In this document: positions 16,872-20,748 of the stretch, piece after piece | How positions within the stretch are numbered: the first letter of the stretch is position 1 | Layout of the letters: every line of letters begins with the position of its first letter | NCBI GenBank assembly: GCA_014055465.1 | Contig: WIAF01000016.1 | Span: forward strand, 1-64,000 | Length of the DNA stretch: 64,000 nt | Direction: 5' to 3' | DNA from: Nitrospira sp. CR1.1 | Lineage (GTDB): Bacteria > Nitrospirota > Nitrospiria > Nitrospirales > Nitrospiraceae | Position numbers and translations under genes: made by a program | The notes under the pieces: model-generated | The model's input: only the letters and a program-made list of their open reading frames with translations | Told to the model about the DNA's origin: nothing | The model's database searches: none

Positions 16872-17297
16872 ATGTCATGGGTCCGGAAATATCGCCTGAT
16901 TGCTGGCACAGGGCTTGTGGTGCTAGGGGTCCGGATAGCTTTGCGCGTCGTGAGTCTCCGACGCCTACTCCGCTGGTTGTGCTGCAGGTCTGCGTCTGGG
17001 GGTGAGGAGAAAACAGTCACGGAAGATATGGTCTATTACGTGGATCGATGGCTGGCGTTATTTCCCTACAACCCTAAAGGTAATTGTTTTCCACGCGCGC
17101 TGACGCTGTTTTTGTTCGCTCGGCGAGCAGGGCTTCCTGTTCAATTTAATTGTGGCGTTAGAAAAGTCCAGCAGCACCTGGAAGGCCATGCTTGGTTAAC
17201 ACTGAACGGGCGTGAGTTCCTCGAACCTTCTTCCTATTGGCAAGCGTTCACTGTGACCCTCAGGTTTCCCCAGCCGCCGGTAATGTCCTCCGAGTAG
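16872..17297 (+). CDS. Lasso peptide biosynthesis B2 protein (leader peptidase-like)
   Basis: 141 residues. An N-terminal basic and hydrophobic segment (about 5-37) could associate with the membrane. The rest matches the transglutaminase-like cysteine protease domain that removes leaders from lasso precursors: nucleophile C72 in GNCFPRAL, H106 in GHAWL, and an acidic residue at the spacing of the family Asp, here E118. The C72-H106-E118 spacing is close to that of McjB. It lies about 370 bases before the recognition-element gene on the same strand, so the split B1/B2 type is inferred. Good family match; substrate presumably the mini-genes at 17996-18291. Confidence 0.8.
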   Translation: MSWVRKYRLIAGTGLVVLGVRIALRVVSLRRLLRWLCCRSASGGEEKTVTEDMVYYVDRWLALFPYNPKGNCFPRALTLFLFARRAGLPVQFNCGVRKVQQHLEGHAWLTLNGREFLEPSSYWQAFTVTLRFPQPPVMSSE

Positions 17298-17671
17298 TCG
17301 TCGAACCCTCTCTTCCGATAGTTCCATAGCGGGGCTCAATTTCTCGTTCTTCGAAATCTCTGCACAATAGATCTCCGTTTTGTCGACAGCCTGCCTGACT
17401 GTCTGATTAACTCGGGTCTCCACACTCGCATGAAGCGGCTCATTGCTGCCTCCACTGCTCGCCAATTTCCTCGTGGAGGCGTTCTGCCCCTCCAAAGAGA
17501 GCTCTCACCAGCCTCATTGGGAATAGATAGAACCACTGCCCAATGCTACCTTTTTGGATATGCAGTATCCAGCGGCATCATTCTCAGACCCATGGCGTCG
17601 CAAGTGACTCATGACAAGCCCAAAACAGTTTCTGCGTAATCGGGATGTTCTTCGAATGCCAGGAGGTGGTT
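17298..17671. other. Gap between B2 and PqqD-like genes
   Basis: About 370 bases without a convincing gene. A 69-codon open frame (17430-17639) shows no family features and has no good ribosome site. No remnant of an asparagine-synthetase-type lasso cyclase could be recognised. A promoter for the downstream PqqD-precursor-kinase genes probably lies here but is not clear. Confidence 0.5.
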
Positions 17672-17989
17672 ATGCCCGCTATGACACCGGTTTTGACGGA
17701 GCACAAGGTTGATCTTTCTCACATTTTTCCGAAACAAAATGAGGACGTCCACAGTACCGTCTTGGATGGGGAGAGCGTATTACTCAATCTGAGTACCGGC
17801 CGTTATTACAGCCTGAATGCCGTGGGATCCATGGTCTGGGAGCAGTGCGTTGGAGCGCTTTCTCTTGCGGCAATTTGTTCGACTATTTGCGACAGATTCG
17901 ACGTGACGTCTCAAGACGCTCAATCAGACCTGCTTGATCTGATAGATCAGTTCCGCCAGGAGGGGTTACTTCACACTGAAAGGAGGTGA
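17672..17989 (+). CDS. PqqD-like RiPP recognition element (lasso B1-type)
   Basis: 105-residue PqqD-fold protein expected to bind a precursor leader and present it to modifying enzymes. The pattern VLLNLSTGRYYSLNAVGSMVW followed in family order by an Ala/Ile-rich helix and a C-terminal helix (DLIDQFRQEGLL) is characteristic. The ATG at 17672 has AGGAGG about 5 bases upstream; an earlier ATG at 17645 lacks one. The gene ends 6 bases before the first precursor, and its last codons form that gene's ribosome site (AAAGGAGGTGA), so the two are coupled. Confidence 0.85.
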   Translation: MPAMTPVLTEHKVDLSHIFPKQNEDVHSTVLDGESVLLNLSTGRYYSLNAVGSMVWEQCVGALSLAAICSTICDRFDVTSQDAQSDLLDLIDQFRQEGLLHTERR

Positions 17990-17995
17990 GTAAGG

Positions 17996-18109
17996 ATGGA
18001 GCAACGGAAGAAAGCCGAGTACGCGAAGCCGGAACTCGTGAAGCACGAGTTGTTGCGCGATGTAACGGCTATTCAGCTGTCCCGTGTCATCACGCAAAAC
18101 AGGGCCTAA
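17996..18109 (+). CDS. Putative lasso-like RiPP precursor peptide 1
   Basis: A 37-residue peptide. AGGAGG at 17981-17986, 9 bases before the ATG, is an excellent ribosome site. Residues 9-14 (YAKPEL) fit the YxxPxL motif by which lasso leaders bind the PqqD-like protein, and T24 is followed by A25, resembling the Thr at the penultimate leader position. Residues 11-30, KPELVKHELLRDVTAIQLSR, are identical to the second peptide; the C-terminus VITQNRA is unique. If cleaved after A25 the core is 12 residues and has no Asp or Glu, so a normal lasso macrolactam is not possible. Product and modification unknown. Confidence 0.8.
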   Translation: MEQRKKAEYAKPELVKHELLRDVTAIQLSRVITQNRA

Positions 18110-18189
18110 CAAGGGCTGGTAGTCCGGCAATTGGGGCTCGAACAGGTCTTCGGTGTTTTCTAATTCTAGTCTGAAAAGGAGTCAGCCCG

Positions 18190-18291
18190 ATGGAACAAAA
18201 ACCCAAGCGCGAATATGTGAAGCCTGAGCTTGTGAAGCACGAGTTGTTGCGCGATGTGACGGCTATTCAGCTGTCTCGCACCATGAAGTAG
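18190..18291 (+). CDS. Putative lasso-like RiPP precursor peptide 2
   Basis: A 33-residue paralogue of the preceding peptide, 80 bases downstream, with AAGGAG (18176-18181) 8 bases before the ATG. Residues 9-14 (YVKPEL) carry the same leader motif. Over codons 11-30 the two genes differ at six positions, all third-base and all synonymous, which argues strongly that the peptide is translated and selected. The C-terminus is only TMK after the shared block, so either it is a truncated copy or the conserved block itself is the functional part. Confidence 0.8.
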   Translation: MEQKPKREYVKPELVKHELLRDVTAIQLSRTMK

Positions 18292-18326
18292 AGGCCCCTG
18301 GTAACAGACTCAACGTTCCGCGAATC

Positions 18327-18397
18327 AGCGGGCTGGCCGGTCTACGGCCGGCGAGCCCGCTCTAAGTGGAACGATGATAATACCCGCTGAGCGGGCT
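18327..18397 (+). promoter_or_regulatory. Hairpins with alternative pairing between precursors and kinase
   Basis: AGCGGGCT (18327-18334) pairs with AGCCCGCT (18354-18361), extended inside by GGCCG/CGGCC. A second copy of AGCGGGCT occurs at 18390-18397, where a short CCCGC-TGA-GCGGG hairpin (18383-18395) also forms. The middle arm can pair with either copy, so exclusive structures are possible just before the kinase ribosome site. There is no T-run. An attenuator or processing site that favours precursor expression is inference. Confidence 0.5.
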
Positions 18398-18414
18398 TGT
18401 ACAAAGAGGTGGTA

Positions 18415-19437
18415 ATGTCCGTCATGTCGACGACGAGTGAACTTCTACTCTCTATCCATGGCATAGAAATAAGGTTTGCCACCAACTCGCCCGAGTTGAT
18501 GGATTCCGTTGAGACATTGCTGCACCACTTTTTATCCAGCGTCACGGCGCCCCGTCCGACGCTGATGCAATTTGATGCAGTTGACGACCGTCGAGATATC
18601 CCTTTCCTAATCCCCAGTACGGCACTATTGCTCTATAGCGGTTCGGGACTCGCAATCGGACCAGATCGGCAAACAACATGGCGTTGCGATATGTACTCGG
18701 ACAAGGGACTGTTGATTGCGGACTTTCACGACGAAGGTCTGGTAGTCGTCGATGGCGCCCTGCATACCGCACAGGGGTACCTTGTGCGGCCGGAATCTAT
18801 GGCGCCCGATATTCGTGTGAGCTTCGTTCATTTCGCGATGACCGAACTGCTGAAACGTCGCGGTCTCTATACCTTTCATGCCACGGCCCTCGAACACAAC
18901 GGGAGAGGAGTGTTGATTCCGGGGTTTAGTGGGCGTGGAAAAACCACATCCTTTCTGTCCTTGTTGAGATCCGGATATCGCTATCTCTCCGATGACCACC
19001 CATTTTTCCGATTGAATGGCACAAGAGTAGAGATTCTCCCATACCCGCTAAAAATTAATGTCACCAACCAAACCATCTCTTTCTTCCCTGAATTGCGCAC
19101 TGCGCCGCCCTCTGTTCTTCACCCAGGGACGCCCAAACACTATTTCTATGCCGAAGATCTCTATCCGGGCCCACTCGGGGCTCCCTGTGAGCCCGCCGTG
19201 ATTATTTTTCCTTTTGTCGTCGATTCTTCCCACAGCTGCCTGGAACCGCTGTCGAAAAAAGTGGCCCTGGAAATGATTCTTCCGCATTCGTTGCTCGTGT
19301 ACGACCCGGAGGTAGCTCGTCGAGAATTTCAAGCACTTGCGCGGCTGATTGAGCAAACAGATTGCTATCGGCTGCACTTTGGCCGTGACGTCATGGACCT
19401 GCCGTGGTTGGTGACGCCTCTTTTGGAAAAGCGTTAG
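18415..19437 (+). CDS. HPr kinase-like protein of the RiPP locus
   Basis: 340 residues. The C-terminal half resembles HPr kinase/phosphorylase: FHATAL, a P-loop GFSGRGKTT (170-178) and the acidic LSDDH (191-195). The N-terminal half is poorly conserved. Such kinases occur in lasso gene clusters, for example PadeK, which phosphorylates the C-terminal serine of the paeninodin precursor. Here conserved Ser29 or Thr residues of the mini-peptides are conceivable targets, but this is inference. AGAGGTGG precedes the ATG at 18415; a TTG at 18397 is less likely. Confidence 0.78.
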   Translation: MSVMSTTSELLLSIHGIEIRFATNSPELMDSVETLLHHFLSSVTAPRPTLMQFDAVDDRRDIPFLIPSTALLLYSGSGLAIGPDRQTTWRCDMYSDKGLLIADFHDEGLVVVDGALHTAQGYLVRPESMAPDIRVSFVHFAMTELLKRRGLYTFHATALEHNGRGVLIPGFSGRGKTTSFLSLLRSGYRYLSDDHPFFRLNGTRVEILPYPLKINVTNQTISFFPELRTAPPSVLHPGTPKHYFYAEDLYPGPLGAPCEPAVIIFPFVVDSSHSCLEPLSKKVALEMILPHSLLVYDPEVARREFQALARLIEQTDCYRLHFGRDVMDLPWLVTPLLEKR

Positions 19438-19455
19438 GCAGGAGAAAGAACTGAG

Positions 19456-20748
19456 ATGGCACAGCAGGCAGGACCCACGATCGCTAGGTGGACACCGTCC
19501 CAAGTGGCTGAAGGGTTGCGTAAACCGAAGGTATTGTCGCCAGGCCTCTCACTCATGTCTTCGGAGGGACGTTTACTCGTGCTTTGTGCGCGAACGGCGG
19601 TGAGTGAATTTGTTCGAGTCGAAATTGCGGACCTGGTGTGTCACGGTATGAATTGGGATGTAGTCTGGGAATTGTCGAAGACGCACGGGGTCGCGCCCCT
19701 GGTCTACCGCAATCTTGCCATGATCTGTCCTGCGGCGATGCCCTCGATGATTCATGAAGCCTACCGTCGGCACAATCAGGCCAATGCGCTCTTAAATACG
19801 TTACTCTCCAAGGAGCTTGTGACGCTGCTTGACGCGTTGGCGGCGAAGGGCATCACGGCGATTCCTTTCAAAGGCGTGACACTTGCGCAGGTTGCCTATG
19901 GCGACCTCAGTTTGCGCGAATGTGCGGACATTGATTTGATCGTTGAGCAGGAGGCGATTCCTCAGGCGAGAAAGATCTTGTGGTCGCAGGGTTACCAACT
20001 CACCAGTCAGGATGAAGGGGCGGATGATGAGTCCGCTGAACCCTATCACTTCTTCCAGAAAAGGAATGGAATTGTAGCTGTTGACCTGCAATGGGTCATG
20101 GCTCGCCGTCACTTTGGGTTCCGGCTAGACCGGAGTGTATTCTGGAGCAGGCTGAAACCGATCAACCTGCCAACCAAATCGGTGCAGGGGCTTTGTCCTG
20201 AGGATCTGCTAATTCTGCTCTGCGTACATGGATCCAAACACGCCTGGGAACAACTCAAATGGATTTGTGATGTGGCCGAACTCGTGCGCCGGCGGCCGAC
20301 ATTGGATTGGAGTCGAGTGCTATTTCAGTCGAACGAATGGCATTGTCGGAGGATGGTCCTGCTGGGATTAGCCATGGCGCAGAGTCTGTTTGACACGGTG
20401 TTACCACGCACGGTTCTTCATGAAATCCAAGCAGATGTAGATATACCAGTGCTGGTGCGGAGGATGCCGAAGCAGTTACTCAAGAATCCCAGCCATGGCA
20501 TCGATGAGGACTGTGCTGATGCGTTGTATGTGACGATCAAAGACTTCTCGTGGGAGCAATGGAAACTGGGGGTGACACTCTGTCGAGCCGAGGCAGATGT
20601 CATTACTCGTCCCTTGCCGTGGTTTCGCTTTCAACGAAAACTTCGTATGTTGGCAGCTTGTCTCAGACCGCTCCATCGAGTGATAGCCAAGGGGATTCTT
20701 TCCGTTCGAATGCGCGGAAGAATTGTGCGTTGGTTGCAAAGTTCCTGA
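19456..20748 (+). CDS. Nucleotidyltransferase family protein of the RiPP locus
   Basis: 430 residues. The central part carries the motif of the NTP_transf_5-type nucleotidyltransferases: PFKGVTLAQVAYGD (137-150) followed by LRECADIDLIV with the DxD pair D158/D160. These proteins recur next to PqqD-like and HPr-kinase-like genes in lasso clusters. It begins 18 bases after the kinase stop and ends the locus. A nucleotidyl group might be added to the peptide or to a phosphorylated intermediate; there is no direct evidence for the substrate. Confidence 0.78.
   Translation: MAQQAGPTIARWTPSQVAEGLRKPKVLSPGLSLMSSEGRLLVLCARTAVSEFVRVEIADLVCHGMNWDVVWELSKTHGVAPLVYRNLAMICPAAMPSMIHEAYRRHNQANALLNTLLSKELVTLLDALAAKGITAIPFKGVTLAQVAYGDLSLRECADIDLIVEQEAIPQARKILWSQGYQLTSQDEGADDESAEPYHFFQKRNGIVAVDLQWVMARRHFGFRLDRSVFWSRLKPINLPTKSVQGLCPEDLLILLCVHGSKHAWEQLKWICDVAELVRRRPTLDWSRVLFQSNEWHCRRMVLLGLAMAQSLFDTVLPRTVLHEIQADVDIPVLVRRMPKQLLKNPSHGIDEDCADALYVTIKDFSWEQWKLGVTLCRAEADVITRPLPWFRFQRKLRMLAACLRPLHRVIAKGILSVRMRGRIVRWLQSS

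Follow-up and report, generated by a model that had tools for sequence, protein, structure and literature searches.

A cyclase-free peptide maturation locus of Nitrospira that probably yields a linear, phosphorylated mini-peptide

Introduction

The described pathways closest to the gene set presented here, which occupies positions 16872 to 20748 of a 64,000-nucleotide stretch of Nitrospira sp. CR1.1 DNA (contig WIAF01000016.1; the whole stretch is called here the window), mature ribosomally synthesised and post-translationally modified peptides (RiPPs). Linear polyphosphorylated peptides (LPPs) were reported in May 2026 by Popov et al. (PMC13381572). Their clusters contain a discrete RiPP recognition element (RRE), an HprK-like kinase, a nucleoside triphosphate (NTP) transferase, an exporter and a SpI-type peptidase and no cyclase, and the product, stated to be restricted to Bacillota, is linear and phosphorylated on core Ser3. 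Core Ser3 is the target of two characterised kinases: LppK phosphorylates it several times in LppA (PMC13381572), and BsfK, aided by its RRE, phosphorylates it in BsfA (PMC10368454). The homologous nucleotidyltransferase (NTase) of the pseudomycoidin pathway is the one lasso peptide NTase with in vivo data, and it attached a hexose to the phosphate (review PMC8498205).

A preliminary description of the Nitrospira locus had proposed a lasso-like gene set in which cleavage, phosphorylation and nucleotidylation replace cyclisation, and had taken this combination to be undescribed. The claim of novelty does not hold, the LPPs of Bacillota having already been published (PMC13381572). In the literature that we searched, which left subscription literature mostly outside its coverage, nothing connected Nitrospira with a system of this type. 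We report here that the locus is probably a lasso-derived, cyclase-free RiPP pathway making a linear mini-peptide that is phosphorylated by the kinase, probably decorated by the NTase and cut after Thr-Ala by the B2 peptidase.

Results

The Nitrospira sp. CR1.1 genome comprises 4.44 Mb and is 99.99% complete. The locus as a whole is flanked by purF and a TlpA-like gene, and its six open reading frames (ORFs) are all on the plus strand. Two of them are precursor genes, and the other four code for a B2-type leader peptidase, a PqqD-type recognition element, an HprK-like kinase and a PF14907 nucleotidyltransferase. Their order on one strand is the one first proposed, and each gene fits a RiPP role. 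The synteny of the locus within the genus and the strong purifying selection on the precursors argue that the arrangement is not due to chance. The features are as follows.

16872..17297, plus strand: B2-type leader peptidase, 141 aa (NF033537, PF13471)
17487..17570, plus strand: conserved cis element (conservation in most loci of the genus)
17672..17989 (ORF open from 17645), plus strand: PqqD-type discrete RRE (B1), 105 aa (PF05402)
17996..18109, plus strand: precursor 1, leader MEQRKKAEYAKPELVKHELLRDVTA, core IQLSRVITQNRA (selection; predicted phospho-Ser codon 18080-18082)
18190..18291, plus strand: precursor 2, leader MEQKPKREYVKPELVKHELLRDVTA, core IQLSRTMK (selection; predicted phospho-Ser codon 18274-18276)
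18327..18361, plus strand: GC-rich hairpin in the gap between the last precursor and the kinase gene (hairpin in 23/23 other loci tested)
18415..19437, plus strand: HprK-like peptide kinase, 340 aa (TIGR04352 below cut-off, invariant residues, AlphaFold model)
19456..20748, plus strand: PF14907 nucleotidyltransferase, 430 aa (PF14907 score, model fold)

The preliminary description had reported the cyclase and the ABC transporter to be absent and had suggested looking for a lasso cyclase elsewhere in the genome. No exporter is present at the locus, and a genome-wide profile search identified no lasso cyclase. Four full-length Asn_synthase homologues, all starting with MCGI, were recovered with PF00733, the weaker matches being QueC, LarE and GuaA. 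All four passed TIGR01536 (381-456 bits, cut-off 267) and failed the lasso cyclase model NF033535 (182-317 bits, cut-off 525), to which the lasso cyclase of locus L076, from the same family Nitrospiraceae, scored 539 bits as a positive control. They are ordinary glutamine-dependent asparagine-synthase types, and a lasso peptide made through an unlinked cyclase was rejected on the genome-wide maximum of 317 against 525 bits. Closure of a macrocycle by an ATP-grasp maturase encoded elsewhere was likewise rejected, the RiPP ATP-grasp model TIGR04187 having no match in the genome. The best match to TIGR02228, the model of the SpI-type peptidase (archaeal signal peptidase I), reached 25.5 bits (cut-off 51.85) and lies outside the locus.

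The two precursors have 33-37 aa. They are the only two copies in the genome, this locus being its sole precursor site. Neither core (IQLSRVITQNRA and IQLSRTMK) contains Asp or Glu, as had been noted, and neither begins with Gly; a Gly1 combined with Asp/Glu at positions 7-9 was found in none of 25 genus precursors. The leaders retain lasso-type features, namely YxxPxL and a penultimate Thr, alongside B1 and B2 proteins. Over the 25 genus precursors the ratio of non-synonymous to synonymous substitutions (dN/dS), an approximate value from pairwise counts with no phylogenetic correction, was 0.05 for the leader, 0.10 for the proximal core AIQLSR and 0.57 for the C-terminal tail. The core Ser (position 4) is present in 25/25 and is followed by Arg in 24/25. 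Because leader and AIQLSR are under purifying selection and the core Ser is invariant, the precursors are real genes. In the sister genera, 29/41 peptides have Ser and 11/41 have Tyr at core position 3 (counted after T-A or T-G).

The leader was then compared with those of characterised peptides. In these leaders the Thr comes 15 residues past the Tyr. The LPP consensus YxxPxVLxHQxIxFET has the same spacing, and so has BsfA between Tyr(-17) and residue -2. A His eight residues past the Tyr, common to LPP leaders, is found in 64/66 peptides, so that Y0-P3-H8-T15 fall in the same register, with Asp in place of Phe before the end. The hydroxyl residue occupies a fixed place in the core, which in the sister genera (position 3) is in register with the phospho-Ser3 of BsfA and LppA. 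It should be noted that these precursor tallies used patterns favouring R[DN][VI]T leaders, which undercounts divergent precursors, and that some loci stop at contig ends. Loci L164, L165, L167, L170, L171 and L126 combine the same leader and an exporter with Gly-rich cores carrying Asn/Trp/Tyr repeats (e.g. TRSGYGNGHGYGYGNGPRGNWGNWGNWGRH), which appear to be another product type of the same machinery.

The kinase scored 63.6 bits with TIGR04352 and 20.7 with PF07475 (cut-off 33.3). Because TIGR04352 requires 200 bits, the protein is related to HprK_rel_A and lies outside that family; the PqqD-type protein similarly missed the cut-off of the companion model TIGR04353 (17.6 vs 35 bits). A P-loop (GFSGRGKT) and an SDD motif were found, and the His, the P-loop Gly-Lys-Thr and the Asp-Asp are invariant across 17 homologues. 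In addition, the kinase profile matched HprK structures, and the AlphaFold model (pLDDT 89) has a PEPCK/HprK-type fold. The NTase scored 224.7 bits with PF14907 and contains the catalytic carboxylates DxD...DLQW. Its model (pLDDT 85) has a nucleotidyltransferase fold and matches MenT1, LnuA, ANT(2'') and FKRP, a ribitol-phosphate transferase.

The B2 protein exceeded the NF033537 cut-off (55.2 bits, cut-off 33) and scored 68 bits with PF13471, and it is the product of the only Transglut_core3 gene of the genome. It carries a Cys in GNCFPRAL, a His in GHAWL and a Glu 12 residues past the His, at the place where lasso B2 enzymes usually carry Asp; all three are kept across the relatives examined. 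Comparison of B2 with PDB sequences gave no meaningful match. The PqqD-type protein scored 65.3 bits with PF05402, and ATG 17672 is its more likely start than 17645 because it follows a strong ribosome binding site (AGGAGG) and gives 105 aa, the same as the orthologues. In pairwise comparison with solved chains, the nearest were TbiB1 (35 bits), PbaB1 (30 bits) and LppB (19 bits).

Two non-coding elements accompany the genes. The cis element (~60 nt; motif CCCCTCCAAAG...CCA..CTCA.TGGGAATAG...GCTACCTTT) lies ~165 nt upstream of pqqD, with near-constant spacing in most genus loci, and is retained even in loci that lost precursor and kinase. In each of four other genomes of the genus, a consensus search matched a single site, the one at this locus; the window copy is too divergent for the pattern used. 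The element had no Rfam match and covariation was not useful; it is probably regulatory. The hairpin at 18327-18361 consists of the stem AGCGGGCTGGCCGG, the loop TCTA and the stem CGGCCGGCGAGCCCGCT, and is not followed by a T run. A strong hairpin occupies the same gap in all the other loci tested, the stem being kept while its sequence differs, and it probably serves in transcript processing or attenuation.

Within the genus, the NTase gene is found at the same place in 28/28 genus-mates and a full-length kinase in 20/29 genomes. The kinase profile matched 76/175 genomes of the family, in 7/22 genera; outside the family the matches were mostly weak, except in two genomes of the same order. 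The family loci that we fetched (cited by their L numbers) are modular and have no lasso cyclase: they combine PqqD, B2, kinase and NTase with one or more precursors, and an MsbA-like exporter is often added. The order precursor, PqqD, kinase and NTase, whose recurrence in relatives the preliminary description had left to be checked, does recur, and no lasso cyclase lies within reach of any cyclase-free locus. Among the 76 kinase genomes, 69 have no lasso-cyclase-like protein and in the other 7 it is always on another contig, a tally obtained by matching two genome lists by hand. Lasso-like NF033535 scores (>350 bits, best piece) were found in 21 of the 175 Nitrospiraceae genomes, none of them from the window genus. 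A weak cyclase match (28%) beside the cyclase-free locus L173 was discarded, the best NF033535 score of that genome (253 bits) being in the asparagine-synthase range. Both the window locus and the sister loci thus support the proposal that the class does without cyclisation.

A subset of sister loci adds an ATP-grasp-type gene pair and fatty-acid-hydroxylase genes, and their precursors end in ...DITG|QKYREK or |GTSGVKTSDK. An ATP-grasp gene is present in all scored loci of this TG type and mostly absent from TA-only loci (TG/TA against ATP-grasp, 7/0/2/28; Fisher p = 3.5e-6, relatedness ignored and the TG-type precursor of L168 missed by the pattern used). Loci of the TA type, to which the window belongs, are usually without ATP-grasp genes even when complete. 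The second ATP-grasp-type gene is related to TIGR04187 and MvdD, with scores below the family cut-off, and a lasso-leader/graspetide hybrid is possible for these loci. The pair co-occurs with a lasso-type leader and B2 in L119 (6535-8068), L118, L068-L071, L158-L162, L168 and L169.

Several genus copies are broken (L048, L065, L055), others retain PqqD and NTase only (L056, L060, L062) or the NTase only (L061, L063), and on the purF+TlpA tree kinase loss or breakage requires ~4-5 independent changes in the set. In the clade L056/L060/L061/L062, which is without precursor and kinase, the NTase DxD has become DxE and DLQW has become NLQW or KLQW while the reading frames remain intact; the carboxylates are retained wherever precursor and kinase are both intact. 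This joint decay, which being confined to a single clade counts as one evolutionary event, is what would be expected of an NTase acting on the kinase product. Separately, reduced loci between purF and TlpA (L172, L174, L175, L176) contain a kinase, some also PqqD, and no recognised B2, NTase or precursor.

Discussion

Taken together, these data point to the following pathway. The YxxPxL part of the leader would be bound by the PqqD-type protein, as in solved RRE-leader complexes, and the precursor would be handed to the HprK-like kinase for phosphorylation of the invariant core Ser, at position 4 of IQLS-R in the window genus and at position 3 in the sister genera. More than one phosphate might be placed on this Ser, by analogy with BsfK and LppK. 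In the weakest step, the PF14907 enzyme would probably put a sugar or a nucleotide on the phosphate. The tailoring first proposed stands for the kinase and NTase, with nucleotidylation now only one option given the hexose attached by the pseudomycoidin enzyme (PMC8498205). Finally, B2 would cleave after Thr-Ala, the predicted site, and release a linear peptide of 8-12 residues, IQL(pS)R..., with no macrolactam. Since AIQLSR hardly varies and only the tail drifts, the product is less likely to be a diversifying antibiotic than a factor associated with the cell or a conserved signal.

Several observations weigh against this pathway. The locus is dispensable, as its repeated loss or breakage within the genus shows. 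The exporter of the sister genera has no orthologue in the window genome (best identity 29%, vs 73-100%), so that export of the product would need another pump, the alternative being a peptide retained in the cell. The predicted phospho-Ser of the genus, at position 4, is one residue off that of BsfA and LppA. Moreover, LppN was inactive in a heterologous test (PMC13381572), and Tyr at position 3 was phosphorylated neither by LppK nor by BsfK, which may mean that sister-genus cores with Tyr are processed in another way.

An alternative is a decaying relic of a larger pathway with exporter and ATP-grasp ligases, whose remainder has ceased to yield any defined product: exporter and ATP-grasp genes are present in sister loci at this same position, and the broken or reduced genus copies amount to 4-5 independent label changes on the species tree. 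We nevertheless consider such a relic unlikely, since kinase and precursor, core included, are under strong purifying selection, with a full-length kinase in 20 of the 29 genomes, and since the ATP-grasp genes are tied to TG-type precursors and usually missing from complete TA-type loci, which may mean that there was no truncation. The near-fixed core, the missing exporter and the single, vertically inherited locus would equally fit an unreleased peptide serving as a small phospho-carrier or regulator, with B2 cleavage as turnover, as would some sister loci in which PqqD and kinase are all that is left between purF and TlpA (L172, L174-L176); most sister loci, however, are linked to an exporter and the B2-NTase set suggests a matured product, and we regard this role as quite improbable. 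A lasso or other macrocycle closed by an unlinked enzyme is suggested by the lasso-type leader and three lasso-type enzymes, together with the four Asn-synthase homologues of the genome. It is very hard to sustain, because all four are of the glutamine-dependent type and fail the lasso-cyclase model, the Gly1 with Asp/Glu at 7-9 is missing from 25/25 genus cores and no ATP-grasp maturase was matched.

The linear, kinase-phosphorylated mini-peptide, which we favour, would extend linear phosphorylated RiPPs from Bacillota to Nitrospirota, the carriers including Candidatus Nitrospira defluvii genomes and numerous nitrite oxidisers from wastewater and groundwater. It would also mean that the module of lasso leader, RRE, B2, kinase and NTase can work without a cyclase, which it may have lost more than once, and the near-fixed core, unlike that of a diversifying antibiotic, suggests a signalling or structural role. 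Another hybrid would be represented by the sister loci in which ATP-grasp ligases accompany lasso leaders. We advance only tentatively, and with more doubt than conviction, the wider proposal of a RiPP family independent of the Bacillota LPPs that arose within Nitrospirota from lasso machinery minus the cyclase, whose Nitrospira product would be a nearly invariant, decorated IQL-pSer-Arg... signal or factor of nitrite oxidisers and whose recombination with ATP-grasp ligases in sister genera would have given lasso-leader/graspetide hybrids.

Among the known systems, the conventional lasso clusters L076-L078, which come from other Nitrospiraceae genera, share PqqD, B2, a YxxPxL leader and an NTase-family protein with the locus. 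They differ by an MSGI-type cyclase, which in L076 passes NF033535, and by a Gly at leader position 9; the cyclase-free kinase profile had no match at 1e-10 in the genomes carrying them. Conventional lasso precursors of L075-L078 read YxxPxLxEYGxxxxLT, with Met-rich or Cys-Leu-ending cores (e.g. GMMGNMMGMNPMMMCL). With the paeninodin and pseudomycoidin pathways of Bacilli (PMC8498205) the locus shares tailoring by an HprK-like kinase and an NTase, whereas these phosphorylate a C-terminal Ser, possess a cyclase and, in paeninodins, have WxxP-type leaders. The TG-type loci of sister genera resemble graspetide pathways by their RimK/MvdD-like ATP-grasp proteins, which the window genome does not encode. 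The Bsf system of Bradymonas sediminis (PMC10368454) likewise has B1, B2, a kinase (K) and an NTase (N); its YxxPxL leader is equally far from the penultimate residue, and BsfA is phosphorylated at core Ser3. By contrast, its lasso cyclase, Gly1/Asp8 and ABC transporter have no counterpart in the Nitrospira locus.

With the LPPs, the locus shares a discrete RRE, an HprK-like kinase and an NTP transferase without a cyclase, and also the equally spaced leader Y..P....H[QE]......T, a hydroxyl near the core start and a variable C terminus. The LPP pathways, however, use a SpI-type signal peptidase where Nitrospira has a B2 cysteine peptidase, and have an MsbA-like exporter, missing from the locus of the window genus, and longer cores; the Nitrospira core is nearly fixed, and the window RRE is in pairwise comparison nearer to lasso RREs (TbiB1, PbaB1) than to LppB. 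The Nitrospirota variant is possibly of independent origin from LPP. On its gene content and sequences, we file the locus neither as an LPP nor as a lasso peptide locus and regard it as an LPP-like, B2-dependent variant in Nitrospirota.

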